Source: Microlunatus kandeliicorticis (GTDB lineage Bacteria; Actinomycetota; Actinomycetes; Propionibacteriales; Propionibacteriaceae). From it: a stretch of 64,000 nt of DNA. The position numbers and the translations under genes were made by a program. The stretch spans positions 310,001 to 374,000 of the forward strand of contig NZ_JACGWT010000002.1 of assembly GCF_014137855.1 (NCBI RefSeq), read 5' to 3'. Within the stretch, counting starts at the first letter, position 1. Every line of letters starts with the position of its first letter. The notes under the pieces were generated by a model. That model was not told the origin of the DNA. It searched no databases and saw only the letters and a list, made by a program, of their open reading frames with translations. This document shows, in pieces, positions 5,954-38,786 of the stretch.

Positions 5954-6433
5954 ATGGACGAATACTGGTCCGACTTCGCCGGCCGGCTGGCCCGAACCCT
6001 CGGGGAACTCGCCGAACGCTCGGTGCTGACCATCGCTTGGGCGTCCGTGCCGACGATCTACCTGCAGTTTGCGCAGGACGAGGAGGGTTTGACCGTGCGC
6101 ACCGGCGCGGAGGACGTGGCCGGCTCGGCACAGCTCGGCGAGCTCAGCGCGCTCGGTTGGGAGTCGCCCGAGACCGACCCGCTCGGTCGTCGTACCTGGC
6201 ACACCGCGCTCGGGTGGCCGGCCCGTTCGGGCGACTACGACCGGCTCGCGCAGCTGTGCGTGCGCACGTTGACCGACGCCCACGGCGTCCCTTCGCCGGA
6301 CGAGCTGGAGTACCGCGCGCACCGGGAGGGCGAGGAGCCCCCGGAGGACGTTGTCCTCTACGAGGAGGACCTCGAGCAGGCCGAGCCGCACCTCGTGCTC
6401 GACCGCCTCGGCATCACTGACGCGAACGGTTGA
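5954..6433 (+). CDS. TY-Chap-domain protein, putative immunity or chaperone
   Basis: A 159-residue acidic protein from ATG 5954. Residues 3-115 follow the TY-Chap N-terminal domain pattern: a WSDFAGRLARTLGEL helix, a YLQFAQDEEGL strand pair, then LSALGWESPE and a C-terminal LVVRTL-like helix (LAQLCVRTLTDAHGVPSPDE). TY-Chap proteins are found next to WXG100/ESX genes and toxin loci in actinobacteria and are thought to be chaperone- or immunity-like. It starts 7 bp after the deleted pseudogene, so the two may once have shared an operon. No membrane segment or signal peptide is visible. Confidence 0.65.
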   Translation: MDEYWSDFAGRLARTLGELAERSVLTIAWASVPTIYLQFAQDEEGLTVRTGAEDVAGSAQLGELSALGWESPETDPLGRRTWHTALGWPARSGDYDRLAQLCVRTLTDAHGVPSPDELEYRAHREGEEPPEDVVLYEEDLEQAEPHLVLDRLGITDANG

Positions 6434-6563
6434 TTGAGGTGGCGGGTGCTCACCGCTGTTCGTCCCTGGGGCGCCGGCCGCGTGATCACAGCCAGGGCCA
6501 GAGGTGCCATTCACTCGTTCCCGTGGCGGTGGGTGCGACCCGGCCTCTTCTAAGGTGACCACC

Positions 6564-18496: not shown

Positions 18497-18570
18497 GGGC
18501 CTATAGCTCAGTCGGTTAGAGCGCTGCCCTGATAAGGCAGAGGTCGGTGGTTCAAGTCCACCTAGGCCCA
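18497..18570 (+). tRNA. tRNA-Ile (GAT anticodon)
   Basis: A 74-nt cloverleaf folds fully. The acceptor stem GGGCCTA pairs with TAGGCCC, followed by discriminator A. The D arm is GCTC/GAGC, the anticodon stem CTGCC/GGCAG with loop CTGATAA (anticodon GAT at 18531-18533), and the T arm GGTGG/CCACC with loop TTCAAGT. CCA is not encoded. Its 3' half is the attachment site of the integrative element; because the element carries an identical 3' half, the gene remains intact after integration. Confidence 0.97.
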
Positions 18571-18572
18571 CC
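18529..18572. other. attL: left copy of the 44-bp attachment core
   Basis: The segment from the anticodon loop of tRNA-Ile to two bases past its 3' end is repeated exactly at 38743-38786. The match breaks on both sides (C against T before, T against C after), defining a 44-bp core. The integrase gene lies about 90 bp inside, reading toward this end, the usual arrangement for tRNA-targeting tyrosine recombinases. Confidence 0.93.
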
Positions 18573-18663: not shown

Positions 18664-19824
18664 TCAGGACTCACCACCCGTCAGCGACACCACCACGCCA
18701 GCTGGCTGATCATGACGACTCAGCAGCGCGTCCAAGCGGTCGACAGCCTCGTCTGAACCGTCCTCGAAGAGTCCGCCGTAACGGGTGAGGGTGAACGCAA
18801 CGTTGTTGTGGCCCGCCCACTCCGACACCTCACGGACGTTGCACCCGGCGGCGACCAGAATCGCCACGAAGCTGTGCCGAAGGCCGTGAAAGGTGATTGG
18901 CGGCAGACCGGCTCGCTTGACCGCCGGCTCCCAGGCGCGTCGGGCGAAGAGTGATCTCCGCAGTGGCCCGCCCGCCGGCGCGGTGAACACGAGCGCGTCC
19001 GGCTCTGGGCCCACGAAAAGGGACAAGTGGCGCTCGAGCTCGCGCATCGTCGCCCGGGCCACAGGAACTGTCCGCCTCGACCGACGGGTTTTCGGTTCGT
19101 TCCCCAGTGTCACATGACCACGCACCTCGACGGCGGTGGAGACCACCCGGATCCGCGAACGCAACACGTCCACGTGCTCACGGGTCAGACCGGAAGCCTC
19201 TCCCCAGCGGAGGCCCGCGAACGCACCCACCAAGACGAGGGCGCGATACCGCTCAGGCATGGCCTCCGCCAGGAGCCCGACTTCGGACTGGGAGAGAAAT
19301 CGCGGTGCCTTCATCCGCTCCGCGGGTAGCGGAACGTCCAGCGCTGGGTTGGTGACCAACCGACCGTCCGCCACAGCCGCCGACAGACACTGACTGAGTG
19401 CGAACACCGCCTTGCGGACCGTGGTGGGCGACAGCCCGGACTCCATCATCTCGGCCACCCAGCGCCGCACGTCAGCATTCGTGATCCGGGCCAGTGAGGT
19501 GCTCCCGAAGCGAGGAACCACCTGGCCGGACAAGGTCTGCTCAAGACGGGCTCGAGTCGAAGCCCTCACATCGTGGCGGGTCTTGATCCACTCGGCAGCC
19601 CATGTCCCGAGCTTCACTTCGCCGCGACGGGGATCACGCCAAACCCCGCTCGCCAGCTGCACCTCGAGCTCTGCTGCCCGGCGCTCGGCGTCCGCCGAAC
19701 GCTTCACGGTTTCGCTGTGCTCCCGACCGGCGTGGTCGCGGTAGCGGACCTTGTAGCGGAGGACCGTTCGCACGCGACCGGTCGAGTCCCGCTGCTTCAG
19801 CTCCCGGCGCTCGATCGACGCCAT
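18664..19824 (-). CDS. int: Tyrosine site-specific integrase of the element
   Basis: A 386-residue tyrosine recombinase that integrates the element at tRNA-Ile. I start it at ATG 19824, with GGAGG 9 nt upstream; the start overlaps the excisionase stop region. There is an N-terminal SAM-like DNA-binding domain (residues about 70-160: LGTWAAEWIKTR... ARITNADVRRWVAEM). The catalytic set is complete: R206 in AFAGLRWGEA, H313 and R316 in HGLRH, H339 in WAGHNN, and nucleophile Y349 in LTRYGGL. It is co-transcribed with the excisionase gene just upstream. Confidence 0.95.
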   Translation of the reverse strand: MASIERRELKQRDSTGRVRTVLRYKVRYRDHAGREHSETVKRSADAERRAAELEVQLASGVWRDPRRGEVKLGTWAAEWIKTRHDVRASTRARLEQTLSGQVVPRFGSTSLARITNADVRRWVAEMMESGLSPTTVRKAVFALSQCLSAAVADGRLVTNPALDVPLPAERMKAPRFLSQSEVGLLAEAMPERYRALVLVGAFAGLRWGEASGLTREHVDVLRSRIRVVSTAVEVRGHVTLGNEPKTRRSRRTVPVARATMRELERHLSLFVGPEPDALVFTAPAGGPLRRSLFARRAWEPAVKRAGLPPITFHGLRHSFVAILVAAGCNVREVSEWAGHNNVAFTLTRYGGLFEDGSDEAVDRLDALLSRHDQPAGVVVSLTGGES

Positions 19825-19826
19825 GG

Positions 19827-20018
19827 TCACCGACCTCCGATCGGCTCGGCGATGCGCTCCAACCAGGCCTCGACGTCCGATCGACGGAAGCGGACGAATT
19901 TGCCGACTCGATAGCCGGCTGGTCCCTCGCCACGGCACCGCCAGCTGTAGATCGTGCTCATGGACACTCCGAGCAGGTCGGAGAGCTCTCGCATCGTCAT
20001 GAGACGTTCTGCAATCAT
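19827..20018 (-). CDS. xis: Excisionase / AlpA-type helix-turn-helix protein
   Basis: A 63-residue MerR/AlpA-like winged HTH. MTMRELSDLLGVSMSTIYSW is the DNA-recognition helix-turn-helix, and GYRVGKFVRFRRSDVEAWLE is the wing and C-terminal helix, the standard excisionase pattern in AICEs. Its TGA overlaps a GTG near the integrase start, so the two are translationally coupled. It directs excision by bending the attachment DNA and assisting the integrase. ATG 20018 or the ATG seven codons later could be used. Confidence 0.88.
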   Translation of the reverse strand: MIAERLMTMRELSDLLGVSMSTIYSWRCRGEGPAGYRVGKFVRFRRSDVEAWLERIAEPIGGR

Positions 20019-20208
20019 CGTGTCTCCGCTCTTGGGCTGCGCCCGGTCTCCCCGAGTTGGTCATGATTCGGCTCTCGCCCCGCCCGTCAAGGGCACTGCG
20101 CTGCGCTTCGTGTCGTCCCGATTCGCTCCGCTCACCCTGGACCGGCGGACCGCGAGCCGATGGCAGCAGTGATCGGGGAGGCCGGAGGAGAGCGCGGTGC
20201 AGAACAGA

Positions 20209-21750
20209 TCACCCGTCCGGGTCGGTCTCCGTCGTCGGTGCTGAACCCGCCGCACTGCAACGACGAGCAGTCTTGGCTTGCTCGTACTCTGCGCGCCATC
20301 GTGAGCGCTCCCATACCGACTCCAAGATCACCCGCGCGTACAGAACCGGATCAGTCCGAAGGTCGGTCCAGACGAACCGCGGCCGTCCATCGGGAAGAGT
20401 GACCGAAGCAGCCAGCCGCTCGAGCTCCGGCGCGAGGATCCCCGCCTCGAGCAGCGCCTCGCGAACCACTGCTGCTCGATCCACGCGATGCTCTCGCAGG
20501 GTCTTGCCCGACCACTCACGGGACACCAGAACTCGCCGGCCGCCGAGACCCAGGTGTTCCCTGTCATGTGCCTTGCGCGCACACTCGCCCGGTCGAAGGC
20601 CTGGCCCGGCGTCCTTCGGCTGGACCCCGAACCTCAGCCAGTTCGCACACTGCTCTGAGCAGGGCAGCAACCTCACCTCATGATGGAGACGATCGATGTG
20701 CGCCTCGTACTCGCCGTCGACCTCGCCGCCCGCCCCCGCAAACGTGTCGGCGATCGACTTCGCGAGGTACTTGGTCAGATACCGCACCGCCCGATCCGCG
20801 TCCAGCGACGGCGCGACGATGCCGGCCATGTCGAGCTGACGGCCGAACCGAAGCGAATGAGACGCACGGTCGTCGTCGACCTGGTCCAAGGCTTCCTCCC
20901 ATCGGGGGAGGACGATGCCCGTATCGGGCTCGATATAGTCCTGCCCGTCCCACACCAGCTGCCGACGGTCGAAGACGGGCCGAACGAACCGTGGCCACCA
21001 CACCTGGTGATGGGTCGCTCTGACGACATCTCTGAGCGTTGCTCTCGGGATGGCGCCGCGAACTGCGGCATGCAGGTGCGGCGCCAAGCGACGCTGAGGC
21101 TCGACTGCCGCGAAGTACTGCACCCGATAGCCGGCGCACCGGCGCAGGTTCTGCCAGAAGCGATCGACGAGCTTGGAGAAGTGCAGCGCGTCCAGAGCCG
21201 CTCGTCGATAGTCATAGGTCGCGGGATCAACCGGAGTTCCGTTGCCCTTCACCCGACCGTAGGACGGCAAAGTCAAGGTTAGGAACATCGACGGTCGGTA
21301 TTCGCGACCATCTGCTGAGCTGAAGACCCGACCGATCGTCCGGTCCTCGGCCGGTACTCTCGGTAGATCGGCAACGTCGTCCCGATGCCGCGTCGAGCGA
21401 ACTCGCCTCTCACCCATCTGGGCTTCCAGTGGAAGCTCGGCGTCGATCTCGTCGTCGCCGTCATCCTCTTCCAGATCTGACGTATCCCTGGCCGGCTCGT
21501 CGCCCCGGTGCCATCCCTCGGCACACTGCTGCATCCGCAGTCTTCGGGCCTTGTCCGCGCATGAGGGGCAGACCGCCTCGCGCGTCGACCCACAAGCCAG
21601 GGGGACCTTCGTCTCGGATCCGCTGGCCTGGTCCAGCACCCGCCGAAGCAAGGGGCGCACGCAGACCTTCTGCTCCACGGCCAGCTCATACGCCATGTCC
21701 GGCGTGACGCGCGGCGTCCCAACCTCCCTGCTCGTGACCGCTGACATCAC
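20209..21750 (-). CDS. RepSA-type rolling-circle replication initiator
   Basis: A 513-residue protein that nicks the element's origin to start rolling-circle replication after excision. The central part has the strand MFLTLTLPSYGR, the HUH metal site PHLHAAVRG, and a tyrosine motif AVRYLTKYLAKS. Upstream lies a Cys region (CVRPLLRRVLD... CPSCADKARRLRMQQCAEGW) typical of actinobacterial RepSA. Its ATG overlaps the translocase stop as ATGA. A gap of 190 bp separates it from the excisionase gene and has no gene that I can support. Confidence 0.9.
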   Translation of the reverse strand: MMSAVTSREVGTPRVTPDMAYELAVEQKVCVRPLLRRVLDQASGSETKVPLACGSTREAVCPSCADKARRLRMQQCAEGWHRGDEPARDTSDLEEDDGDDEIDAELPLEAQMGERRVRSTRHRDDVADLPRVPAEDRTIGRVFSSADGREYRPSMFLTLTLPSYGRVKGNGTPVDPATYDYRRAALDALHFSKLVDRFWQNLRRCAGYRVQYFAAVEPQRRLAPHLHAAVRGAIPRATLRDVVRATHHQVWWPRFVRPVFDRRQLVWDGQDYIEPDTGIVLPRWEEALDQVDDDRASHSLRFGRQLDMAGIVAPSLDADRAVRYLTKYLAKSIADTFAGAGGEVDGEYEAHIDRLHHEVRLLPCSEQCANWLRFGVQPKDAGPGLRPGECARKAHDREHLGLGGRRVLVSREWSGKTLREHRVDRAAVVREALLEAGILAPELERLAASVTLPDGRPRFVWTDLRTDPVLYARVILESVWERSRWRAEYEQAKTARRCSAAGSAPTTETDPDG

Positions 21751-23225
21751 GCCGCCTCGGAGTTCCGCGAGCGGGGCGATCGTGAGCGAGGGGGACGAGC
21801 CGGATCAACCTCGAGCGGCTCGACCGGGATCTGTGCCGCCGCCGGATAGCGATGGGCAATCTCGCGGATGGCGTGGTCGTCGACGAATCCAGCGCGCACT
21901 CGGACCAGGCGGCCGGCGTCATCGAGCGCGAAACCCACGCCGGGTGTCGAGCGCGGAATCCGGTGAGCCGCCGCACCAGCCGAGATCGCTCCGTCGCCCA
22001 GCACCATTGCCACCTCCTCACGATCCCGAAGGCGCAGCGCAATGGTCTGCTGAAAGAGATGTCGAGCCTTGAGGGTCTCCTTCCGCGGATCCTGGAGGAA
22101 TCCGAAGACGAAGTAGCCCGGCGCCCGACCGATGGAGCACAGCCGAGCAAGGGCGACCTCGGCCCGACGGAGCAGATCCCGATCGGGCAGATAGGCGACC
22201 AGTGATGCCAGCTCATCGATGAGGACCAGGACCAGGGGTGCTTCGACCGAGGGCACGTGCTCTCGTGCGACACCCACCATGCCGCGGGCGCGCCGCTCAC
22301 ACTCTTCGACAGCGTCCTCGAGGAGGCGTACGGCCGTCCCAGGATCGTCGGCGTAACGAGTGAAGAGGGGCCGCCCGAGACCCAGCTCCATTCCGCCTTT
22401 GAGATCGATGCCGTGGATCTGCACCAGCCCCGCATGCGCCGCCGGCGCCAGCTCCACCATCAGCGACCACATCACCGAGCCCTTGCCAGCTCCGGATGCT
22501 CCCGCGGTGAGCGTCGAGACGCGCAGATCGACGGTCCACGGTTGCTCGTCTTCTGTCCGCCCCAAACAGACCCGCGTCAGAGGCAAGTGATCCGCTTCCG
22601 GAAGGGGGGTCGCGAACGGTTCGGCGAGGACGTCGCCGAACCGGCAGATGATCCGGCAGCTGATCTGATCCTCGTCCGGAGCGACCCGCACTCGGTGTGC
22701 AGCCACAGCGAGGCGCAGTCGTTCCGTTGCTTCCTCGACGTCCCCGATGGTCTGGCCGAGCAGCAAGGCCGGTCGCAGAGTGAGCTGATGGCCTGCCCAA
22801 CTCATCCCTCGCAACGTCGGGACGACAACCCGTTCGCTCGGCCCAATTACTCCGAGGGGTGGCGTCACCAGTGCCAATGCAACCCGAGGAGTTCGGCGCG
22901 ACAGGCCGCAGGCCTCGGCAATCAACGGCCACTGCTTGCGGACAGCCCGGCCAGTCCGACGACGCCACAGAGGGTCGGCGAGCAGACGCCGATAGCTGAT
23001 CGGGGAAAGCCGAGCCCAGCACACGACAGCGAGAACGGGCACGAGCAGCAGGCCGACGACGACGACTTGCCGCTGAAGCGTGGCCAAGGCGAGTATCGCC
23101 ACCCACAGAAGCGCGCGCCGTGGGTAGCGCCGCAAGATGCCCGCTGCGCCACAGGCCCACCACCACGCCTCGCGAACTGGCTGGCGCAGTAATCGCACCG
23201 CCTGCGACTTCGCTGTCCGAGTCAC
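21747..23225 (-). CDS. FtsK/SpoIIIE-type conjugal DNA translocase (TraSA/TraB-like)
   Basis: A 492-residue membrane-anchored motor that in AICEs moves double-stranded DNA between hyphae or cells. I place the start at GTG 23225, just after the upstream stop. Two membrane helices span about residues 25-70 (LWVAILALATL, VVVVGLLLVPVLAVVCW). Walker A is GASGAGKGS at residues 242-250 (K248). Walker B is LVLVLIDELAS near residue 320. GYFVFGFLQDPRKETLKARHLFQQ fits the FtsK sensor region. In this element it might instead act as coupling ATPase for the type IV system; that is inferred. Confidence 0.92.
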   Translation of the reverse strand: MTRTAKSQAVRLLRQPVREAWWWACGAAGILRRYPRRALLWVAILALATLQRQVVVVGLLLVPVLAVVCWARLSPISYRRLLADPLWRRRTGRAVRKQWPLIAEACGLSRRTPRVALALVTPPLGVIGPSERVVVPTLRGMSWAGHQLTLRPALLLGQTIGDVEEATERLRLAVAAHRVRVAPDEDQISCRIICRFGDVLAEPFATPLPEADHLPLTRVCLGRTEDEQPWTVDLRVSTLTAGASGAGKGSVMWSLMVELAPAAHAGLVQIHGIDLKGGMELGLGRPLFTRYADDPGTAVRLLEDAVEECERRARGMVGVAREHVPSVEAPLVLVLIDELASLVAYLPDRDLLRRAEVALARLCSIGRAPGYFVFGFLQDPRKETLKARHLFQQTIALRLRDREEVAMVLGDGAISAGAAAHRIPRSTPGVGFALDDAGRLVRVRAGFVDDHAIREIAHRYPAAAQIPVEPLEVDPARPPRSRSPRSRNSEAA

Positions 23226-23230
23226 CTGGA

Positions 23231-23635
23231 TCAGGCCGCCTTCGCCGCCACGCTGGAGCCGCTGCGGGGCCGGGCATCGGCCAGGCCGGTGCAGCGGAAG
23301 CTGTAGGCGATCTTCGGCCGCATGCCGTTGTCGTTGATCCACGGCGTCACCATCAGGTTCTCCAGCACCACCGGCCGGACGAACTGGCCATCCGTCAGCG
23401 CCGGCGGGACCGGCTGATGATCAGCGGCGATCTTCACCTTGACGGTCCGCTCGCGGGCGTCGGGATCGAAGTCGAGCACCTCGACCGTCCACAGCAGCCG
23501 CCCCGAGTCATCCCGAGCCTGCACCGGCCGCTCCTTCGTCGAAGCCTCGAAGTCGTTGGCCGGAATCACCTTCGACACCACGCCGGCACCGAACGGGAAC
23601 GCGTCGTCGAAGCTCATCTTGAACGGAACCTGCAT
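23231..23635 (-). CDS. Conserved AICE accessory protein of unknown function
   Basis: A 134-residue soluble protein starting at ATG 23635, chosen because GAGGAAG sits 7-8 nt upstream; an in-frame start 21 bp further up has no such site. It has beta-rich segments (MQVPFKMSFDDAFPFGAGVV, RLLWTVEVLDFDPDARERTV, KVKIAADHQPV) and a positively charged tail. Proteins of this size and pattern commonly precede the FtsK gene in Streptomyces-type integrative elements, where their role is not established. It is the first gene of the minus-strand replication/transfer operon and lies opposite the regulator. Confidence 0.7.
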   Translation of the reverse strand: MQVPFKMSFDDAFPFGAGVVSKVIPANDFEASTKERPVQARDDSGRLLWTVEVLDFDPDARERTVKVKIAADHQPVPPALTDGQFVRPVVLENLMVTPWINDNGMRPKIAYSFRCTGLADARPRSGSSVAAKAA

Positions 23636-23688
23636 GGCTGACTTCCTCTCGTCCACGGCTCCGATCGGGGTGATCGGTGCATGGATTC

Positions 23689-23939
23689 AGGACAACCGAA
23701 AGGCCAGGGACGGCGAAACAACCTTGTTGGACACTAGGGACGAATTGGGACACACATCACGTCCTAGTCAGTCCTTTCGCGTGTCCGCACCAACGAAGTA
23801 CTCGCCCTCGGACTGCGAGCCACGAGCTCGTCGACGGATGCGACTTAAGGTGATGTGAACGCATGTGCCCCGAAAGACGACGAATGTTCTGTCCTTCCAA
23901 GTCCTTGACATGTCCAGAAACGTCCCATCTACTGGAGAA
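23689..23939. promoter_or_regulatory. Divergent control region with repeated GGACA/TGTCC motifs and a leaderless promoter
   Basis: In this gap between the rep/tra operon (minus) and the XRE regulator (plus), GGACA or its complement recurs at 23690, 23730, 23749, 23782, 23890 and 23911. For the regulator, TTGACA at 23905-23910 and TCTACT at 23928-23933 are 17 bp apart. The predicted start is at about 23940, exactly the GTG codon, so the mRNA is probably leaderless. The motif cluster is a candidate operator array for the XRE protein. Confidence 0.5.
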
Positions 23940-24692
23940 GTGAACGAGCGCCTCCGCAGTCAGATGAAGCGACGCGGATACTCCCCTGGACGCCTCGCCC
24001 GAGCGTGTGATGTCAACATCAAGACCGTCGAGCGATGGATAGCCCACGACCGAATTCCGCATCGGGAGACACGCTGGGCGGTCGCCAGGGAGCTCGACGC
24101 CGATGAGGTCTATCTGTGGCCCGGCCTGCTGGATGATCAGGACGACAGTCAGCGACAGGGGACCGTGGAGTCCGAGTTGCTCGGCGTCTACCCCGACCGA
24201 GCTTCTGTGCCGCGCGACGTCTGGGTGCAGCTCCTCGGCTCAGCGACCAGACACATCGACTTCCTCGTCTACGCGGGAACGTCCATGGCGAACCTCAACC
24301 CGAGGATCGGAGCGATGCTGGCGGAGCGGGCCGCGGCCGGCGTGAGCGTGCGTCTGTGTTGGGGAGATCCGGACAGCCAGGCGGTCGACGTCCGCGATCG
24401 CGAGGAGGGGCTGCGTGGCACGCTTGCCGCCAAGATCCGGGCATCGCTGACCTACTACCGCGAGCTGATGGATGTTGACAACGTAGAGATCCGACTTCAC
24501 GGCACCACGCTCTACGCATCGATCTTCCGCTTCGACGACACCATGCTGGTCAACCCGCACATGTGGGGAGCCCCGGCTTCGGCCAACCCCACCTTGCACC
24601 TACGGCGGCTCGAGGGCAGCACGTGGTTCGACGGCTACCGTCGCAGCTTCGATGCCGTTTGGGATACGGCGCAGATCTGGGAACCCGCCTAG
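23940..24692 (+). CDS. XRE-type regulator with PLD-like C-terminal domain
   Basis: A 250-residue protein from GTG 23940. Residues 1-60 are a lambda-repressor-type HTH (VNERLRSQMKRRGYSPGRLA, then VKTVERW-like NIKTVERWIAHDRIP). Residues about 75-245 form a phospholipase-D-like or DUF5919-type domain (VQLLGSATRHIDFLVYAG, LAERAAAGVSVRLCWGDPDS, VNPHMWGAPASANPTLHLR) without an obvious HxK pair, so it may sense rather than cleave. It is divergent from the rep/tra operon and convergent with ispF: the two stop codons share the palindrome CTAG. It is the likely master repressor or activator of the element. Confidence 0.8.
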   Translation: MNERLRSQMKRRGYSPGRLARACDVNIKTVERWIAHDRIPHRETRWAVARELDADEVYLWPGLLDDQDDSQRQGTVESELLGVYPDRASVPRDVWVQLLGSATRHIDFLVYAGTSMANLNPRIGAMLAERAAAGVSVRLCWGDPDSQAVDVRDREEGLRGTLAAKIRASLTYYRELMDVDNVEIRLHGTTLYASIFRFDDTMLVNPHMWGAPASANPTLHLRRLEGSTWFDGYRRSFDAVWDTAQIWEPA

Positions 24693-25183
24693 GCGTTTCG
24701 GTTCTCCACCGGGTAGACGAGGACACTCGCCCACGCGCTGCAAGCCGCTCCTTCCCCCTCCGGCCCGATCCCATCGTTGGACCGGGCCTTCACCGACACC
24801 GCCTCCAGAGGCAAGCCCAGCGCGCCAGCCAGGTTCGCCCGCATCGCTTCAATGTGCGGCCGCAGCCTGACTGTGCCGAGTACGACGAAGCAGTCGAGAT
24901 TCGACACCTCGTATCCATGATCAGCGACCACCGCCGCGAACTCCTCGACGAAACCGAGGCTGCGAGCGTCCTCTGCAGCAGGATCGTCCTCGGGGAAGTG
25001 CGTACCTAGATCGCCGTCGGCAATTGCGCCCGCAAGCGCATCAACGACGGCGTGACTGAGCACGTCGCCGTCGGAGTGCGTGTCGAAGCCGACGCCTGCC
25101 GCAATGCTCACGCCGCCGAGCACGAGTTCCTTGCCTGGCACCAGGCGATGTGTGTCGTGACCCAACCCGGTTCGGAACATCAA
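24689..25183 (-). CDS. ispF: IspF-like 2-C-methyl-D-erythritol 2,4-cyclodiphosphate synthase carried on the element
   Basis: A 164-residue protein, close to the 159 of E. coli IspF, which converts CDP-ME2P to MEcPP and CMP in the MEP isoprenoid pathway. The metal ligands are present as GHDTHRL (D and H) and DVLSHAVVDAL (H). HFPEDDP, a KARSNDGIG segment in place of the usual TTEKLG, and GEGAACSAWASVLV match the family. No ispD lies nearby, and a housekeeping copy would be expected elsewhere on the chromosome. It forms a pair with the HD phosphohydrolase (ATGA overlap). The role on the element is unknown; it might alter MEcPP, a known stress metabolite, or have shifted substrate. Confidence 0.85.
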   Translation of the reverse strand: MMFRTGLGHDTHRLVPGKELVLGGVSIAAGVGFDTHSDGDVLSHAVVDALAGAIADGDLGTHFPEDDPAAEDARSLGFVEEFAAVVADHGYEVSNLDCFVVLGTVRLRPHIEAMRANLAGALGLPLEAVSVKARSNDGIGPEGEGAACSAWASVLVYPVENRNA

Positions 25184-25824
25184 ACGGCCACCCGATCCAA
25201 TCCCGCCAGGCGTGCAGGCTCGACCTCGATACCAGCCACCTCGATCAGGGCAGCGGTCGCAGCACAGGCTTCCTCGAACTCGGGGAGCCCAGAGTGAATC
25301 GACCTGGCCACCACATGATCGGCACCGTAGCGGTCGAGGATCTCTGCCACCCGTTCGTGGAGGCTCATCGGCTCGCCCGAAGGGCTCGTCGTCAGATCAC
25401 AGAACGTCAGCGCCTTGTCCAGCGCGGTGTTGCACCACGGGAACTCATCGCAGTAGCCGTCGATCCCCCTCAGTGCGGCTTCAATCCGCGCGCCTGAGTG
25501 ATGAGCGACCAAGAGCGCCAACTGGTGCTCACCACACGCTTCGAGAAATCGGGCGCCGTCCGCAGGGTGGAAGCCGGACGTCGCCAGGCTTGCCGAGTAG
25601 CCAATGTCGTGCAACAGGGCTGCATCGACCAGCAGGTCGAAGCCTCCGCCGAACGCGGGGGCCAACTTTTCGGCGACCGCACCGACGGCCCGCACGTGGG
25701 ACCACCGGCGTCCCAGGGGCGCCAGATAGCCCCTCGCGCACTCGTAGGCCCACCGGCTCTCAAGCATGCGAGAAACATACGCGGTGCCCTCAGACGACAC
25801 AGGTAGGCGAAAGTCACAAGTCAC
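25180..25824 (-). CDS. HD-domain phosphohydrolase paired with ispF
   Basis: A 214-residue HD-superfamily protein. The first metal-binding His is in SHVRAVGAVAEKL and the signature is LLVDAALLHDIGYS. A second His pair follows (LALLVAHHSGAR) and a late D in KALTFCDLTTS, the order H...HD...HH...D of this fold. Such enzymes hydrolyse phosphate esters of nucleotides or related metabolites. It overlaps ispF by 4 bp, so both are made from one mRNA. The substrate cannot be read from sequence; a nucleotide or the product of IspF are options. Start at 25824 (others are possible at ATG 25767). Confidence 0.8.
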   Translation of the reverse strand: MTCDFRLPVSSEGTAYVSRMLESRWAYECARGYLAPLGRRWSHVRAVGAVAEKLAPAFGGGFDLLVDAALLHDIGYSASLATSGFHPADGARFLEACGEHQLALLVAHHSGARIEAALRGIDGYCDEFPWCNTALDKALTFCDLTTSPSGEPMSLHERVAEILDRYGADHVVARSIHSGLPEFEEACAATAALIEVAGIEVEPARLAGLDRVAV

Positions 25825-26449: not shown

Positions 26450-28081
26450 ATGAACCTACTCTCAATGATCCTACCGGGCTTCCGAGATTTACGAACGCCT
26501 TTCTCTGCCGGACTCCTATGGGCAACCGCCTTTTTCGCAGCATGGATCGCGCTTCCTCCAGCGACTTCAGATCGGCTGCAAATAGCGTTTCGACCTTACA
26601 GTGCTTTGATCGTGAAATTTCCATCAGGCGTAAAGACGGGGATCCTTATCGCTTCGGTATATCTTGTTGGTGTCATTCTTACGTACGTCTTCTCGGCGCT
26701 GTCGCGCACGCTCGGAGTTCTGCTCGACTACCGCATTCTTATAGCGGTTCTCGCCGTCGCGGTGGTAGTATTGGTTTCATTTCTTGGGGCGACTGCTCTT
26801 TTCTGGGTCGGGGTGCTGCTGGGTGTTTCTGTCACAGCACTGATCGTGATATTTGTTCGAAGCTTGCTAATATCCAAGACCGCCCAGGGCGCTGACCGAT
26901 TGGAGCAGCCAGTCAGCGAGGAGCCGTCGCGTAACGAAGACGTGGAGCCTGGCATCGGCCCCACCGCCGCCCTCTCCACGACCGCCCAAGACGAAGGTAG
27001 TGATTCCGTGGGAGCAACTGCCCAACAGGAATCACCTATGACTCTGCAAGATCTCCTTGGCGATGTCTCTGAAGCTCTCAGATTCGTGGGTCTTACAGTG
27101 CTCGAAGGCCTCAGGACTCTCGCCTATAGCTGGAGCAATGAACGAGCTGAGAGGCTCTACTTCTTAAAACAAGACGCTGAGCGACGAGTTCAAAGGTCAC
27201 CCTTCATGAGCCGCGAAATTGTGGATACCATGTCGCTCGCTGGCTCCGCAGATGCGCTTGACTTTCTCAATGCAAAATTCCCGCCAGAAGATTCCGAAGA
27301 CCTACTTAGCACGATGAGCAGTGCCGATTCTGACTGGTTGCGGAACCATATTACGGGAATCGAGCAAAACCAAAACGCAGCCAAGCGACCTTGGCGACGA
27401 TTGTATCGTGAGGCACGAACCGCTCACTATGTACCACGTCGAGATGTAGAGACCTATGTGAAAGAGTCTCTGCTGGGTGTGCTTGCTGGGAGTTCGGAGG
27501 CTAGAAGAGAATTTGTCTGGAGATATGTCGTCGTGGCATTGCCGCCAGAGCAAATTGATCGACGTATATCTGAGCTCAAGGTGAGACTTAAAGTGGACCA
27601 CGAAAAGCTTTACGACGAGTACGATCGTCTCTCCGCCGAAGCCGAATTTCGGAGTGCCATCGGCATCCCGATGGCGGCAACCCTCATCTTTGTAGGCTAC
27701 GCGCAGGTGCAAACATTCAGCTGGTTGACATTTGATCAATGGTGGCCAACCGTCGACCGGCTTCTTAATGTTCAAGCTTTGCCGTCATGGCTTTATTGGC
27801 TGCCAGAAGCCTGTCGGGAAATACTGCATCAACCATTCTGGGCGTTCGTTATTGGCGTAGTGATTATGATTCTGTTTTCCTCGGCCGGAAAGGCCAAAGC
27901 CGGAGAGGCCGCACGTCTTCTCTACGCAGCCGTCCGCCAGGGCATCCTCTCAAAGGCAGACGAGCCGCTGTTTGACAGCTCCGAACTTGGCTTTGATCAA
28001 GGCGGAGTTCTTGGCGTCCGCCCTGAGGGTCGTGAACCTGCCGAAACGGCACCCATGATGACCGAACCAACGTCCCAGTAG
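26450..28081 (+). CDS. Low-GC multi-pass membrane protein, unknown cargo gene
   Basis: A 543-residue protein with base composition near 50% GC against about 70% around it, a sign of recent transfer. About four N-terminal membrane helices lie at residues 18-38, 60-85, 95-118 and 120-142, followed by an acidic disordered stretch (to about 205), a helical cytoplasmic domain (residues 210-390) and two helices at about 398-418 and 465-485. I do not recognise the family. With the next gene it forms the only sizeable cargo that is neither transfer nor core function. Such two-gene membrane cargo is often defence-related, but no defence domain is identifiable. Confidence 0.75.
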   Translation: MNLLSMILPGFRDLRTPFSAGLLWATAFFAAWIALPPATSDRLQIAFRPYSALIVKFPSGVKTGILIASVYLVGVILTYVFSALSRTLGVLLDYRILIAVLAVAVVVLVSFLGATALFWVGVLLGVSVTALIVIFVRSLLISKTAQGADRLEQPVSEEPSRNEDVEPGIGPTAALSTTAQDEGSDSVGATAQQESPMTLQDLLGDVSEALRFVGLTVLEGLRTLAYSWSNERAERLYFLKQDAERRVQRSPFMSREIVDTMSLAGSADALDFLNAKFPPEDSEDLLSTMSSADSDWLRNHITGIEQNQNAAKRPWRRLYREARTAHYVPRRDVETYVKESLLGVLAGSSEARREFVWRYVVVALPPEQIDRRISELKVRLKVDHEKLYDEYDRLSAEAEFRSAIGIPMAATLIFVGYAQVQTFSWLTFDQWWPTVDRLLNVQALPSWLYWLPEACREILHQPFWAFVIGVVIMILFSSAGKAKAGEAARLLYAAVRQGILSKADEPLFDSSELGFDQGGVLGVRPEGREPAETAPMMTEPTSQ

Positions 28082-28298
28082 TCATTTGCTGCTGGGCGCG
28101 TAGTCTTGCTAATCGTCGTTATCGCTACTACCTCGGCGTCCCACCGACGATGATCATAAGGATGCTGACAAATCAAACCGGGTCCGAGATGCTGCTGGCA
28201 TCCGCGCACATCTCGGCCGGCCGATCACTCCTGGTCGAGGTCAGCTGACAATGATGGCGAATACATTGCCGAATCTGGCTCTATGGGATCAAGGCGGC

Positions 28299-28365
28299 TC
28301 GCTGCGCTCGCCGCGGCTGCGGTCCGGTCCTCGCTCGCTGCGCTCCCTGCGGTCCGGTCCTCGCT
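28299..28365. repeat. Two GC-rich 30-bp-period repeats between the low-GC genes
   Basis: CTGCGGTCCGGTCCTCGCT occurs at 28317-28335 and 28347-28365, each preceded by a CTCGCTGCGCTC block. The 390-bp gap between the two low-GC genes otherwise holds nothing that I can support. The repeat is strikingly GC-rich inside AT-rich DNA and may be an inserted palindromic repeat or part of a transcript stem. Confidence 0.45.
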
Positions 28366-28470
28366 GAACTTGGCTTCGCTTCAATTACACGCGACCAAAG
28401 TCGCCTACGCGAGCGCATACTCAAGTACTCTGCTGGACGTGGACCGACCAAATGACCGCCAAGACTTGCC

Positions 28471-29823
28471 ATGAAGGAGCCATCAGAAGCACCGCGAGAG
28501 AACCAACTCGAAGTGGCGGAACGCCGAATCGACGCTCTTTCGGAATTAGTTAAGCCGAACACAGGACATGCGCGCGAACTGAGCATACTAAAAAGAGCGA
28601 TTGGTCTAGCGCAGGATCTTCCGTTCCATTTGTTGCAAAACGGCTTGGGAACCTATGACCTCCGATTGTTGGAGAGCGTTTGCCGAGACATTGTGCTCCT
28701 AGAACCGGAACGGAGTATCTACAACCTTCAGCAAGCGCGACAGTCACTCATCAGGTCCTTATACACTCTTACTTCATCGCAGGAGAATTTCGGCGACTCA
28801 GTCGACTGGGCAAAAGCTCAGCACATAAACGCAGCGGTTGCTGCATTAGCTCCAACGGTGGAAATAGTAGAACCCTCTGACGGCGGGTCACCTTGGCTAA
28901 GCTCGGACGGTGCGCAACACCAGTCCATATACCTTGAATTGAGAAAGGCACTTGATCTCGCCATACAACGTATCGAGTCGCTTTCGTCCGGACCAACTAC
29001 CCTGGACGCCTCAGACGAGCTCGATTTGGTTCGAGAAGCACTCCAAATCGCCGAAATATTTGCCGACAGCGCTCGGACCTATGGCGTGCTTGACGTATAT
29101 TCTATCAATGACCTCACTTCAGTAATCGGGCAAACCGCATTGTTTGAGATGATGGAAGGCGTAGACGAATTACGTGCTCTTCGGCGTCGCTTAATCCAAC
29201 GGCTGTTCGACTCAATCGCCGAGGGTGCCCGTAGGGTAACTGATACTGAACGGGCACAACTCCAAGGACTAAGCGTAGATCTGGCGAACCTCACAGCATC
29301 TAGAGTCGTTGCCGACGCTGACGCCGTGTCTAGGGCACGGGCAGCGACAGAAGAAAGCGCTGGATCCGTGGCCGAGAGCGAGCTGGCTCAGCAGTTCGCC
29401 GGGTATCAGGTAGCACAATTGCGGGCCAGCTGGGGATGGCTCATCGTTTCAGTCTTCGCGCTTGCAGCCACGGTCGGGGTTGCCTTGGCCGCCCTGAATC
29501 AATCAGTTGGCTTGGGTTGGCAGAGCTATGTATCGCACCTACTTGTTGCACTTCCATGCCTGGGGCTGGCTGCATACTGCTCGCGTGAGGCATCTCGCCA
29601 CCGCCAGGCTAGCCAATGGGCTGGGCGCCTCGCGGTTCAACTCAAGTCCGTGGGTGCCTTCACCGGTCGGCTCAGCAACGAGAGTCGCGATGCCGTTCTA
29701 ACAAGTTTTGGACACTACGTGTTTGGACCGCATAGCGTCTCCGACGACAACCAGATCCAGTCTGTCCCACCCGAGATAGTAAAGGCCGTCGCGGATGCAA
29801 TCAAGGCACGCGGGACAGTTTGA
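28471..29823 (+). CDS. Low-GC helical protein with C-terminal membrane hairpin, unknown cargo gene
   Basis: A 450-residue protein. Residues 1-310 are soluble and helical, with repeated amphipathic helices (LGTYDLRLLESVCRDIVLLE, LDLAIQRIESLSSG, ELDLVREALQIAEIFADSAR). Two membrane helices follow (WGWLIVSVFALAATVGVALA and SHLLVALPCLGLAAYCS), then a short tail of the form ASRHRQASQWAGRLAVQLKS with a final FGHYVFG. A two-helix hairpin plus this kind of basic, HR-containing tail occurs in several membrane-associated conflict proteins; I draw only a loose resemblance. Low GC matches the upstream gene, so the two probably arrived together. Confidence 0.75.
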   Translation: MKEPSEAPRENQLEVAERRIDALSELVKPNTGHARELSILKRAIGLAQDLPFHLLQNGLGTYDLRLLESVCRDIVLLEPERSIYNLQQARQSLIRSLYTLTSSQENFGDSVDWAKAQHINAAVAALAPTVEIVEPSDGGSPWLSSDGAQHQSIYLELRKALDLAIQRIESLSSGPTTLDASDELDLVREALQIAEIFADSARTYGVLDVYSINDLTSVIGQTALFEMMEGVDELRALRRRLIQRLFDSIAEGARRVTDTERAQLQGLSVDLANLTASRVVADADAVSRARAATEESAGSVAESELAQQFAGYQVAQLRASWGWLIVSVFALAATVGVALAALNQSVGLGWQSYVSHLLVALPCLGLAAYCSREASRHRQASQWAGRLAVQLKSVGAFTGRLSNESRDAVLTSFGHYVFGPHSVSDDNQIQSVPPEIVKAVADAIKARGTV

Positions 29824-30163: not shown

Positions 30164-30568
30164 CTATGACCGCGAGTCCTCCCGTGTACTGTTCGGCTCT
30201 GACTGACCGTCGGTGAGTTCGAGCCAGACGTACCGTGCGGGCCAACAAATAGCGTGGCTCGGACGCGCTGGCCGTTCATCGGCCGACTGGCCGATCCACC
30301 ACCACCACTGGTCTTCGCCGACTAGATGGACGTACCAGCCGCCGGCGTCCTCGAAGACCTCCGAGGCGATCCGGAGTCCATAACGGATCCCGGACCCGTT
30401 CCTCGTCGCGCCTCGGCGCCCGAACGCATCCGGGGCGTCGATGACCGAGACCCACTCGATCGGAGGTGGCGGGCCGAAGTCCACATACTCGAGCGGACCG
30501 TTGACGTCGACCAACCGGCCGTTATCGTCGAAGCTCAAGTCCTCCCACCTGCTCGGAGGCTCCGTCAC
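30164..30568 (-). CDS. Small Trp-rich hypothetical protein at the end of the T4SS operon
   Basis: A 134-residue acidic protein. I place the start at GTG 30568, which overlaps the stop of the peptidase gene (GTGA); the frame is open further upstream. Visible features are VSVIDAPDAFGRRGATRNGS, a beta-type centre, a WWWWIGQ cluster and a C-terminal ARYVWLELTDG. No signal or membrane segment is seen. It is the last gene of the minus-strand secretion operon. Function is unknown; an immunity- or entry-exclusion-like role is a guess. Confidence 0.55.
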   Translation of the reverse strand: MTEPPSRWEDLSFDDNGRLVDVNGPLEYVDFGPPPPIEWVSVIDAPDAFGRRGATRNGSGIRYGLRIASEVFEDAGGWYVHLVGEDQWWWWIGQSADERPARPSHAICWPARYVWLELTDGQSEPNSTREDSRS

Positions 30569-32097
30569 GGCGACACCCCACGCCCGGAAAGCCACGCATC
30601 CGGGTCGACCGGAGTGCCGTTGACCCGCACCTCCAAGTGAAGGTGCGGCCCGGTCGTGTTGCCCGTGGCACCGATCCGGCCGATGACCTGACCCGCGCTC
30701 ACCGCATCACCCACCCTCACCTCCTGAGCCGACTGATGCGCGTACCAGCTCTGCACACCGTTGGGGTGCTGGATCTTCGTCAGGTTCCCGTACGCCCCGC
30801 CCCAGCCTGCCCAGACAACCGTCCCGGCCATGATTGCGTGAATCGGGGTGCCGGTGGGAGCCGCGAAGTCCAGCCCGGTGTGACAGTTCGCCCAGTGGCT
30901 CGAGCACTGCCCAAACCGCGCAGTCAGAACATAGTGGTCGACCGGCAACACGATCGAGCCGAACCCACGGACACCCGATGCACCGCCGCTCCCGGCTTGA
31001 TCCCCGTAGACGGAGATGTGGACGTGGTCACGGTGCGCAGCGGTCGGGTCCGGCCCGCTGTAACAGGCGGCGGCCGACGTGCCGCAGCTTCGCCAACCCT
31101 CGGAGGCCCGCTCGACGTTCCAGATGCGGGCGTTCCAGATGACGTACTTCACGCCTAGTGCCTGATGCTTCCGGACGGCCCAGGCGGCGATCGCATCACC
31201 CAACCGCACGCCGGTCGCGCTCGAAGGACCCGGGATCATCGCGTCCACGGCTCGGCCGTCCTGGTGGTCGGTGTCGACGTTCGCCGGCCGATCACCGACG
31301 CCGTACAGGGTCGTCAACTGCGGCCAGGAGTCCTTCAGGCAACGGAAGACCCGGAGCGCGTCGGGGGTGAGGCCCTGCTCGGCGGCCATCCCGGTCGCGG
31401 GGCAGCTCATCGCACCGGCCGCACCGCACATGCCGGACCCCATCGCCGCGACCGCATCGGCGCTTCCAGCCGGGGCCTTGGCCTTGATCGAGGCCACCAG
31501 ACCGGCAGCCGAACGCTCCCACTTCGCGTAGGCGTCAGGAAACGCCGAGCGCTGCACCGTCTGCGCCGCGACGGTGACCGACATCAGCTGCCAGCCCGTC
31601 ACCTTCGCCAACGCCTGGAAGAACAGCCGTGACGAATGCACGGGATCCTCGCGGACGGCAGCAGGCCCCCAGCTCGCCCGCTGTTGGAACAGTCCTAGCG
31701 AGTCGCGGTCGCCGTAGTTGAGGTTCCGCAGTCCCGACTCCTGGAGCGCCGTTGCGATCCCGACGACCGCGCCGCGGTCACCGAGCGACAGCTGCTGTGA
31801 GACCGACCAGATCGTGGTCGCGTTGCGGACCTGTTCGGCCGAGAAATCACCGGAAGCCTGCGCATCGCCGGCCAGCGCGAGGGTCGAATCCGCGCACGAA
31901 CCGCCGTCGGTGATCCGCTGCTGCTGGCCGCGCAGGCTCGCCGTCAGCTGGGCTGCCAACATCCACGGGCCGAAGACCACCGCCAGGGATGTGCACAGCC
32001 CGGCCAACACCAGCCCGACGATCAGGTAGCGGAACCCACGCTGGCGCGCCAAGGTCGTGGCGAGCTGGAGCGCCATCTTCGCGGTCGCGGGATCCAC
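30565..32097 (-). CDS. VirB1-like cell-wall hydrolase: transglycosylase-like plus M23 peptidase
   Basis: A 510-residue anchored wall hydrolase (membrane helix at residues 24-48: LIVGLVLAGLCTSLAVVFGP). Residues about 90-180 resemble a lysozyme-like domain (ATALQESGLRNLNYGDRDSL, GLFQQR). A middle domain at about 235-360 has HQDGRAVDAMIPG and HRDHVHISVYG. The C-terminal M23 metallopeptidase shows HTGLDFAAPTGTP (H and D ligands near residue 405) and HLHLEVRV near residue 485. Opening a local hole in peptidoglycan is the expected role in conjugation. It belongs to the T4SS operon. Confidence 0.85.
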   Translation of the reverse strand: MDPATAKMALQLATTLARQRGFRYLIVGLVLAGLCTSLAVVFGPWMLAAQLTASLRGQQQRITDGGSCADSTLALAGDAQASGDFSAEQVRNATTIWSVSQQLSLGDRGAVVGIATALQESGLRNLNYGDRDSLGLFQQRASWGPAAVREDPVHSSRLFFQALAKVTGWQLMSVTVAAQTVQRSAFPDAYAKWERSAAGLVASIKAKAPAGSADAVAAMGSGMCGAAGAMSCPATGMAAEQGLTPDALRVFRCLKDSWPQLTTLYGVGDRPANVDTDHQDGRAVDAMIPGPSSATGVRLGDAIAAWAVRKHQALGVKYVIWNARIWNVERASEGWRSCGTSAAACYSGPDPTAAHRDHVHISVYGDQAGSGGASGVRGFGSIVLPVDHYVLTARFGQCSSHWANCHTGLDFAAPTGTPIHAIMAGTVVWAGWGGAYGNLTKIQHPNGVQSWYAHQSAQEVRVGDAVSAGQVIGRIGATGNTTGPHLHLEVRVNGTPVDPDAWLSGRGVSP

Positions 32098-32100
32098 GGC

Positions 32101-32670
32101 TCAGACCTGCTCGACCGACGTCGCCAGCCATCCGAGTCTGGCCTGCGGATCGGCCACGACCAGCACTCGGATCGTCAGGTCCGACGACAGCTGCTGGCTG
32201 AACGTCACGCTGTAGGGCGAAACGTCCTCGACCGAGGGCGGACCCACCGGACGTGCGGCGGGCACGTTGTCCAGTGAGGTCAGCTCGAGCTGCTCCGCCA
32301 GCGCAGGCACCGCAGAATCCTGGAGAGCCTGCTTGCGGCTCTGTGGATCACGGTCGAGCCAGGCTCGAACGAACTCCTCGACGGCTTGGCGTGACTCGGT
32401 CGGCGCTGTGCTCGGCTGGGTCTCGTCCGACCCGGCCGGTGCGGTCGTGGTGGGTGATCCGGTGATTGTGGGGGTCGTCGACTCCGCAACTTTGCTGACT
32501 GCGCTCGGCGCCGGCGGCTTGGACGCCGAAGTGGTGCCGCTGGTCGCCGTCCAGACGATCAGGAGCGCGCCGACCGCGACTACCGCGGCGAGCAGCAGCA
32601 ACGACCGCCACGGCACACGACGCCGGGCGGAGTCTTCGACGTCGTAGGTGAGGACATCAGGCCGGCGCAT
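32101..32670 (-). CDS. TcpC/VirB8-like membrane-anchored transfer protein
   Basis: A 189-residue protein with a short cytoplasmic head, one membrane helix (WRSLLLLAAVVAVGALLIVW), a Ser/Thr/Pro spacer, and an exterior domain of about 110 residues (AVEEFVRAWLDRDPQSRKQA, VTFSQQLSSDLTIRVLVVAD). One helix plus an NTF2-like fold fits VirB8/TcpC proteins of Gram-positive conjugation systems; the fold is inferred from pattern only. It starts within the 3' end of the VirB6-like gene and ends 3 bp before the hydrolase gene. Confidence 0.6.
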   Translation of the reverse strand: MRRPDVLTYDVEDSARRRVPWRSLLLLAAVVAVGALLIVWTATSGTTSASKPPAPSAVSKVAESTTPTITGSPTTTAPAGSDETQPSTAPTESRQAVEEFVRAWLDRDPQSRKQALQDSAVPALAEQLELTSLDNVPAARPVGPPSVEDVSPYSVTFSQQLSSDLTIRVLVVADPQARLGWLATSVEQV

Positions 32671-37560: not shown

Positions 37561-38009
37561 TTCTTCTCCTCCGCGGCCTCACACGCCGCCTTCCAGCGAC
37601 CAGGCACCGAAGCGTCCAGCTCACCGATCCGCGGCCACGGCATCGTCCACGCGGTCCTCGCCTCGGCCCGGGTCCGTGACTCGCGGCCCAGCTCGTCGCG
37701 GAGCGTGGCCACCTTGTGCCGCAGCGGCTCGTCGAAGGAGACGTTGCGCATCACCCGCACCGCCAGATAGATCGACGCCGGGGCGCCGTAGATCAACCCG
37801 AACCAGAACGCGAACCACGGCGCGTGGCCGACCGTCACCTGGCCGAGCAGCGCCAGCAGCAGCCAGACCAGACAGACCCCGACCGGGATCATCAGCAAGG
37901 TCACCGACCACTGCACATAGGTCCACTCGAAGGGGAGCGTCGCCCCCTTCGGACCCAGCCAGACTGCCCGGAGCTTGCGCGGACCGTCGTCCGTGCGCAG
38001 AACAGGCAC
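37557..38009 (-). CDS. PrgI/VirB3-like membrane protein
   Basis: A 150-residue protein with two adjacent membrane helices (VTLLMIPVGVCLVWLLLALL and WFAFWFGLIYGAPASIYLAV), a short N-terminal strand region and a charged helical tail of about 60 residues. PrgI/VirB3 proteins have this layout and always lie just before VirB4, as here (4-bp overlap). It is expected to anchor the VirB4 ATPase to the membrane complex. The call depends on topology and position. Confidence 0.65.
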   Translation of the reverse strand: MPVLRTDDGPRKLRAVWLGPKGATLPFEWTYVQWSVTLLMIPVGVCLVWLLLALLGQVTVGHAPWFAFWFGLIYGAPASIYLAVRVMRNVSFDEPLRHKVATLRDELGRESRTRAEARTAWTMPWPRIGELDASVPGRWKAACEAAEEKK

Positions 38010-38013
38010 GATC

Positions 38014-38241
38014 TCAGCTGACGCCGAGAGCGGTCAGGATCTTCCGACCGAACGCCGCGAAACCGATCGCACCCATCCCGATCGCCACGATTACGATCGC
38101 GACCAACGTGTTGAAGCCGACCCGAGCGGTCTCGGAGTACTGCGCCCGTTTCGCTCCCGCGGCCAGCGCGATGCCGACCACGATGATGACCAGGCCGAAG
38201 ATGGCCAGCAGCAACGTCTGGACTTTGCCTTCATCGAACAT
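38014..38241 (-). CDS. VirB2/TrbC-like small two-helix protein (pilin-like)
   Basis: A 75-residue protein with two hydrophobic helices (KVQTLLLAIFGLVIIVVGIA and NTLVAIVIVAIGMGAIGFAA) joined by a short charged loop (KRAQYSETARVG). This matches the VirB2/TrbC pilin-like family, which forms the pilus or a short surface channel. It is the first gene of the T4SS operon and has GGAAGGA just before ATG 38241. The next gene starts 4 bp downstream. Confidence 0.7.
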   Translation of the reverse strand: MFDEGKVQTLLLAIFGLVIIVVGIALAAGAKRAQYSETARVGFNTLVAIVIVAIGMGAIGFAAFGRKILTALGVS

Positions 38242-38742: not shown

Positions 38743-38786
38743 CTGATAAGGCAGAGGTCGGTGGTTCAAGTCCACCTAGGCCCACC
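38743..38786. other. attR: right copy of the 44-bp attachment core
   Basis: An exact repeat of 18529-18572, consisting of the 3' half of tRNA-Ile plus two bases. Only the half-gene is here: the sequence before it does not continue as a tRNA, so this copy is not a functional tRNA. It marks the chromosomal junction on the right. Confidence 0.93.

Follow-up and report, generated by a model that had tools for sequence, protein, structure and literature searches.

In the genome of Microlunatus kandeliicorticis (assembly GCF_014137855.1, contig NZ_JACGWT010000002.1), an integrated mobile element carries three adjoining genes for an HD-domain phosphohydrolase, a homologue of IspF, the 2-C-methyl-d-erythritol 2,4-cyclodiphosphate (MEcPP) synthase, here called IspF2, and a regulator with an XRE-type helix-turn-helix (HTH) and a phospholipase D (PLD)-like domain. 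They occupy positions 23940 to 25824 of the 64,000-nucleotide stretch that was analysed (positions 310,001 to 374,000 of the contig, forward strand), which is called the window below. Comparison with other genomes confirmed that this trio is a real recurrent unit, which lies on the element here and beside mobility genes at several other loci. Its features are as follows:

23940..24692, + strand: XRE and PLD-like regulator (PF19319, DUF5919; PLD fold; start set by alignment)
24689..25183, − strand: IspF2, IspF-like with an altered cytosine pocket (PF02542, TIGR00151, clade and column counts)
25180..25824, − strand: HD phosphohydrolase, overlapping ispF2 (PF01966; conserved motif)
24689..24692: CTAG common to the convergent stop codons of the regulator and ispF2

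The HD-IspF2-regulator trio

A sequence-only reading of this region had described an ispF-like gene coupled to an HD gene and facing an XRE-PLD regulator, and the open reading frames (ORFs), the protein families and the shared CTAG all bore this out. The regulator frame is open from 23865 and stops at 24692, and its start was placed at GTG 23940 by alignment with 19 relatives. The 4-bp overlap given in that reading for the HD gene and ispF2 (TTGATG) holds if the TTG start at 25183 is used, whereas the ATG start at 25180 leaves an overlap of 1 nt (TGATG). As the two genes overlap, HD and IspF2 are probably translated together.

The IspF protein of the window matched PF02542 with 172.4 bits and TIGR00151 with 155.4 bits, above the equivalog cut-off of 116.45, and the HD protein matched PF01966 with 34.8 bits. 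The HD motif (H43, H72-D73, H86, H109 and D143) was invariant in all 22 aligned rows; the HD of locus L123, which has a long branch, was left out of this alignment and of the 48-row HD tree discussed below.

The regulator matched PF19319 (DUF5919) with 27.6 bits, a match that the regulators of loci L055 and L133 did not reach, and the alignment gave 34–70% identity to 19 other PLD-type regulators. Its C-terminal domain has the PLD fold, and TrmBL2 was among the tied top rows of the structure comparison. The regulator nevertheless differs from TrmB and TrmBL2 (PDB 2f5t and 5bpd) in its XRE-type HTH and shares 9–13% identity with them, and other PLD proteins fell within 1 Z. The HxKxxxxD motif of active PLD enzymes is absent, as none of the 20 regulators has the lysine at +2; the histidine is present in 14 of them. 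A stretch just 5′ of the regulator start, at 23900-23930 (TTGACATGNCC...CGTCCC), is common to the window and to locus L032 of genome G264, and it may be the promoter or operator of the regulator.

Recurrence of the trio

Eleven IspF2 proteins of the genus were aligned, and a search of a contig collection with this alignment gave 15 loci. Seven of these, in six actinobacterial metagenome-assembled genomes (MAGs), contain the trio in the order of the window with IspF2 and the regulator convergent (L050, L051, L052, L053, L054, L055 and L057). L052 and L054 come from one MAG, and in L052, L053 and L054 the contig ends within the regulator gene. By tblastn, the proteins of these loci are 71–78% (IspF2), 38–48% (HD) and 40–46% (regulator) identical to those of the window. 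Among the scanned proteins, the mobility markers were a TrwC relaxase in L052 and L057, RepA_C in L057 and a D5_N primase-type protein in L050. The recurrence on which the sequence-only reading had made its proposal depend was thus found, at seven other loci with the same gene order.

The other eight loci lack the trio. Six of them (L056 and L058-L062) are same-genus copies lacking the HD and regulator genes, and L063 (Dormibacterota) and L064 (Scrofimicrobium, with a broken frame) have other neighbours. In L064, the IspF2-like copy of Scrofimicrobium canadense (59%, at 6001-6505) is split by the frame break, and another ispF lies elsewhere in that genome.

A partial trio was observed in G264 (L032), where IspF2 is convergent with a 70% identical regulator on an element with RepSA, FtsK and integrase genes; no match to the window-type HD was obtained in this genome at E 1e-8. 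At 7985-11679 of L032, a RelA/SpoT-domain gene and a HAD hydrolase gene flank the pair of IspF2 and PLD regulator, in place of HD. Another PLD-type regulator is divergent from a small Cys-rich gene in four same-genus genomes (L126-L129, of which L129 is from M. kandeliicorticis itself). This Cys-rich gene matched Pfam Whib in both of the loci scanned (L126 and L129), and an integrase match lies near it in L126 and L127.

A Nudix gene usually takes the middle position

The HD family was also surveyed regardless of IspF, in two samples, one of the phylum (246 genomes) and one of the class (394 genomes). In the phylum sample, HD was found in 14 genomes, including that of the window. A Nudix gene is convergent with HD in nine of the remaining 13 loci. 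In eight of these nine, a PLD regulator lies on the other side of the Nudix gene (in L118 with a gene-sized gap), while the ninth, L117, ends at a contig edge. The four weakest HD matches had neither a Nudix gene nor a PLD regulator. In the class sample, HD was found in 73 genomes, and the 26 best-scoring new loci were read: 24 have a Nudix gene (23 of them with a regulator), one has the regulator only, one has neither, and none has IspF. Over both surveys, Nudix was present in 33 of the 39 loci, together with a PLD regulator in 31 of the 33, and IspF in none of the 39. On the other hand, no match to the module Nudix at E 1e-3 was obtained in the window element, L032, L050-L055 or L057, and no Nudix family was found among the element genes scanned. 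Searched against the PDB, the module Nudix profile had 3q1p as its second match (E 7.6e-19), an entry that PMC6384729 describes as CDP-Chase.

Ghinet et al. (2011, PMC3218068) reported an mdp-nud-xre cluster on four Frankia actinomycete integrative and conjugative elements (AICEs), Sco5349, pMEA100 and pSE211, and mdp, nud and reg genes are also named on the Actinoplanes AICE pACPL (PMC3364876). From the gene content, we infer that the published cluster is the same as the Nudix trios found here. Both this cluster and the window trio bring together, on a conjugative element, an HD phosphohydrolase, a middle enzyme of the nucleotide type and a regulator. The window trio differs from it in having IspF2 and not Nudix in the middle; moreover, ispF2 is on the strand of HD, whereas the Nudix gene of the trios read here is on the strand of the regulator. 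The IspF2 trio is new, while the Nudix form is already published and unexplained: the part of PMC3218068 that presents the cluster gives it no function of its own. No paper describing IspF in a cluster of the mdp-nud-xre type was found in a literature search that left subscription journals mostly outside.

Several further arrangements were observed. The HD closest to that of the window (54%) belongs to a Nudix trio adjoining a TrwC relaxase gene (L133, 3-2498). A small gene of L133 resembles, by eye, one in the IspF-type L050; similar element neighbourhoods thus hold Nudix in one case and IspF2 in others. A Nudix-GntR-HD order occurs on a Thermoactinomyces plasmid. On a Kitasatospora plasmid (L131, 2401-3468), a module-type Nudix gene comes after a gene with a CYTH domain, whose annotation reads class IV adenylate cyclase; the displayed stretch has no HD annotation.

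Exchange of Nudix and IspF2

In the 48-row HD tree, the window HD was sister to that of the Nudix trio L133 (100/97), and the seven other IspF-linked HDs were placed elsewhere, beside other Nudix-linked ones. A single clade for all IspF-linked HDs was rejected by the approximately unbiased (AU) test, with p-AU 7e-10 in this tree; a first tree of 23 rows had given 0.007. Among the regulators, those of the window and L032 grouped with the Nudix-linked L114 and L140 (100/100), apart from the other IspF-linked regulators. In the cleaned 41-row regulator tree, the pair was joined by two non-IspF rows with support of 100/99, and a single clade for the IspF-linked regulators received a p-AU of 0.032 (0.033 in the first tree). 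The L053 regulator, which is cut by the contig end, was dropped from all regulator trees, and the piece of the L149 regulator was too short for the 41-row tree. The larger regulator tree used copies that do not adjoin Nudix for L134, L136 and L137; the 41-row tree excludes these three and L143.

IspF-linked HDs and regulators thus form two groups among the Nudix-linked ones, and these topologies demonstrate an exchange of Nudix and IspF2 in which IspF entered the module at least twice. The closest Nudix-linked kin of the window HD and of the window regulator are in different loci, which suggests that the module reassorts with the order HD-enzyme-regulator held. No other observation points more strongly to equivalent work by IspF2 and Nudix than this repeated exchange with a kept order.

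IspF2 keeps the catalytic residues and alters the base pocket

In the IspF tree, 20 IspF2 rows formed a clade (100/99) on a long stem, apart from 23 other IspF rows. The column counts below refer to 19 full IspF2 rows, with the broken L064 copy set aside and L091 missed by the extraction motif; among the 23 rows labelled housekeeping IspF, the check for an adjoining ispD covered L002, L045 and L046, where it was seen. Like MEcPP synthase, IspF2 belongs to the YgbB family and has the Zn ligands, the stacking residues Ala131 and Lys/Arg104, and Ser and Asp at the phosphate and Mg positions. Asp8, His10, His42, His34, Asp38 and Asp56 are kept in 19/19 IspF2 rows. The Zn ligands Asp8, His10 and His42 are among them, which agreed with the earlier statement that the metal ligands of MEcPP synthase are retained. 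Position 133 is Ser and position 135 is Asp in 19/19, both conservative changes (Thr133→Ser, Glu135→Asp).

IspF2 differs from MEcPP synthase at Pro103, Thr132 and Gly145 in 19/19 rows, at position 146 and, in most rows, at Arg142-Glu144. The structure of Mycobacterium IspF was reported to have a cytosine pocket shaped by Pro103 and residue 146, a pair more than 85% conserved in 450 IspFs (PMC2151065). Pro103 was found in 0/19 IspF2 rows (Val 14, Ile 4, Thr 1) versus 23/23 of the other IspFs, and position 146 was Cys 12, Ala 5 and Val 2 in IspF2 versus Ile 18, Val 3, Leu 1 and Ala 1 in the others. The same report describes Thr132 as touching the beta phosphate and Arg142-Glu144 as the cavity aperture. 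Position 132 was Arg in 19/19 IspF2 rows (Thr 18, Lys 4 and Arg 1 in the others), and position 145 was Ala in 19/19 versus Gly in 23/23. Arg142 was kept in 3/19 and Glu144 in 4/19, against 20/23 and 22/23 of the others; the window copy has Glu and Ala there. The dN/dS of ten other IspF2 copies against the window copy was 0.075–0.185 in nine of the ten pairs, the tenth being saturated, which shows purifying selection on IspF2 as judged by substitution rates. Taken together, IspF2 looks like a working enzyme with its catalytic residues kept and its base recognition altered.

The host genome has a second ispF (contig C3) beside IspD and CarD genes, 38% identical to the element IspF. The chance that the element copy is the housekeeping ispF, raised in the sequence-only reading, can be set aside, because the genome has this separate ispD-ispF pair. 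The window copy differs from it in having no adjoining ispD, and, as stated in that reading, no other gene of the 2-C-methyl-d-erythritol 4-phosphate (MEP) pathway was found among the element genes scanned, small ORFs being outside the scan. IspF of the other type was also present in all eight genomes searched behind L050, L051, L052, L053, L055, L057, L063 and L064. In the genus, IspF2 occurs in 11 of 20 genomes; another ispF is present as well in 10 of the 11, all but G260, which is a fragmented draft.

The host element

The trio is part of an integrated element of ~20.2 kb, at each end of which stands one copy of an exact 44-bp direct repeat of the 3′ end of a tRNA-Ile gene (18497-18572). 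Its other features are:

18529..18572: attL, tRNA-Ile 3′ end (exact 44-bp direct repeat)
18664..20064, − strand: tyrosine integrase (PF00589)
20209..21750, − strand: RepSA replication initiator (PF20199, 290 bits)
21747..23342, − strand: FtsK/SpoIIIE translocase (PF01580)
23231..23656, − strand: conserved small gene, first on the strand of ftsK, repSA and int and divergent from the regulator (L032 has a stretch with 54.7% identity)
38743..38786: attR (exact 44-bp direct repeat)

The features of an AICE are present, namely an integrase, a RepSA-type initiator, an FtsK translocase and att repeats at a tRNA gene. AICEs are transferred by a single FtsK-type protein, without a type IV secretion system (T4SS). 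Inside the same att sites, at 30565-38241 (− strand), there are an M23 peptidase gene, a sub-threshold TrbL/VirB6-like gene and an AAA_10 gene, which we take to be VirB4-like. With these genes, the element could be a hybrid between an AICE of the FtsK type and an integrative and conjugative element of the T4SS type. At 26450-29823 (+ strand), two genes for proteins of 543 and 450 aa have ~55% GC, compared with 0.65–0.75 elsewhere in the window; they had no match in Pfam, NCBIfam, PADLOC or PHROGs, and they are probably foreign cargo. The sequence-only reading had connected the trio with AICEs. An AICE-like context was found for the window and the partial G264 locus, but the trio contigs of the MAGs resembled plasmids or TrwC elements in those cases that had a marker (L050, L052 and L057).

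Possible role of the module

We give about an even chance to the reading that the trio is a variant of an HD-Nudix-XRE module with IspF2 in the place of Nudix, in which both enzymes would remove one metabolite linked to a nucleoside diphosphate (NDP) and the regulator would read it to control transfer. Nudix enzymes and IspF are both described as acting at the pyrophosphate of an NDP linked to a group X (PMC2151065 for IspF; published abstracts for Nudix). Nudix enzymes convert NDP-X by hydrolysis to a nucleoside monophosphate (NMP) and P-X, and in IspF the NMP is expelled by internal attack on the beta phosphate. We infer the chemistry and the role of the module along the following lines. IspF2 or Nudix would remove the same NDP-linked metabolite, and HD would then take a phosphate off the product or a related nucleotide. 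The PLD-like domain of the regulator, which lacks the HxK lysine, may sense the substrate or the product, as its fold suggests, and from its position the regulator may control the divergent transfer and replication strand.

Pif of pSAM2 is a Nudix conjugal immunity factor, the mechanism of which is stated to be unknown (PMC3218068). By analogy with Pif, the module would likely regulate transfer or confer immunity to redundant transfer. Going by its description, Pif resembles the window trio as an element-borne enzyme of the kind acting on NDP-linked metabolites; its Nudix fold is absent from the trio. More speculatively, and with considerable doubt on our part, IspF2 could be a new enzyme type which converts an NDP-linked metabolite, not necessarily a cytidine diphosphate (CDP)-linked one, to NMP and a cyclic diphosphate. 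Such an enzyme, interchangeable with a Pif-type Nudix, would form with HD and the PLD-like sensor a signal of cell state or kin for transfer or exclusion.

Some observations weigh against the proposal that IspF2 stands in for Nudix. Wholesale recombination of modules, instead of swaps of a single gene, would look much the same in the trees. Nine same-genus genomes carry IspF2 alone, without HD or regulator, and in three of them (L030, L031 and L035) the lone ispF2 occupies a common site, with M1 aminopeptidase and YchF genes nearby. These lone copies with shared flanks suggest that IspF2 can be useful by itself, which leaves room for an MEcPP isoenzyme. Moreover, the cytosine contacts of IspF were reported to go to the backbone (PMC2151065), so the change of the pocket may weaken CDP binding and need not abolish it. 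These points favour a plain isoenzyme of MEcPP synthase that travels as metabolic cargo and raises MEcPP or isoprenoid flux in a new host, with HD and the regulator as neighbours of convenience. The retained Zn ligands, the conservative changes at positions 133 and 135 and the TIGR00151 score above the equivalog cut-off agree with it; its trimer cavity would perhaps behave differently, as the Arg142-Glu144 aperture is mostly lost. We regard this explanation as possible but doubtful, since the order of HD and regulator is kept at eight loci, Nudix takes the same position elsewhere and there were at least two origins. The altered Pro103-Ile146 pair, so widely conserved in reported IspFs (PMC2151065), also speaks against it, as does another ispF in the window genome and in all six MAG trio genomes.

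The sequence-only reading had proposed that the pair makes and breaks an MEcPP signal. In this form, IspF2 would make MEcPP or a like cyclic diphosphate, HD would break it and the regulator would sense it. IspF chemistry is plausible for IspF2, the overlapping and probably co-translated genes fit this version, and so does a PLD-like domain without the catalytic lysine. However, the middle gene is a Nudix in 33/39 HD loci, and this enzyme is not expected to make MEcPP; the same-genus genomes with a lone IspF2 had no match to the window-type HD at E 1e-8. We therefore consider this version unlikely. With Nudix as the usual middle gene, at least two exchanges and a changed cytosine pocket, the unit probably acts on an NDP-linked metabolite, which may lie outside the MEP pathway. 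A defence, toxin-antitoxin or addiction module, with enzymes that change a nucleotide pool of the host and a regulator that silences these enzymes, would suit genes that converge, overlap and have a regulator of their own. In L047, a related trio, the Nudix matched the PADLOC candidate model PDC-S07 (E 1.3e-10) and the XRE protein weakly matched mad1; the HD fold is near, though not specifically, that of small alarmone hydrolases, and a RelA/SpoT-domain gene lies beside ispF2 in L032. Such a module is nonetheless improbable, since PADLOC-DB 2.0 gave no match for the IspF, HD or regulator of the window and no candidate toxin is present, all three proteins resembling metabolite enzymes or a regulator. 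Nudix, HD, HAD and CYTH enzymes do occur at such sites, as would suit sanitation of the nucleotide pool for the incoming element during replication and transfer, with no signalling. This would leave the regular link to a PLD-type regulator beside transfer genes unexplained, and we hold it to be very improbable.

For the wider family of elements, a second fold with understood chemistry at the Nudix position narrows the substrate to what both enzymes can cleave, an NDP whose attached group has a nucleophile close to the beta phosphate. A substrate narrowed in this way makes the question of the targets of element-borne Nudix enzymes directly testable, and annotations of IspF on mobile elements may not mean isoprenoid synthesis. 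The swap of Nudix and IspF2 may help to identify the metabolite by which such elements control their own spread.
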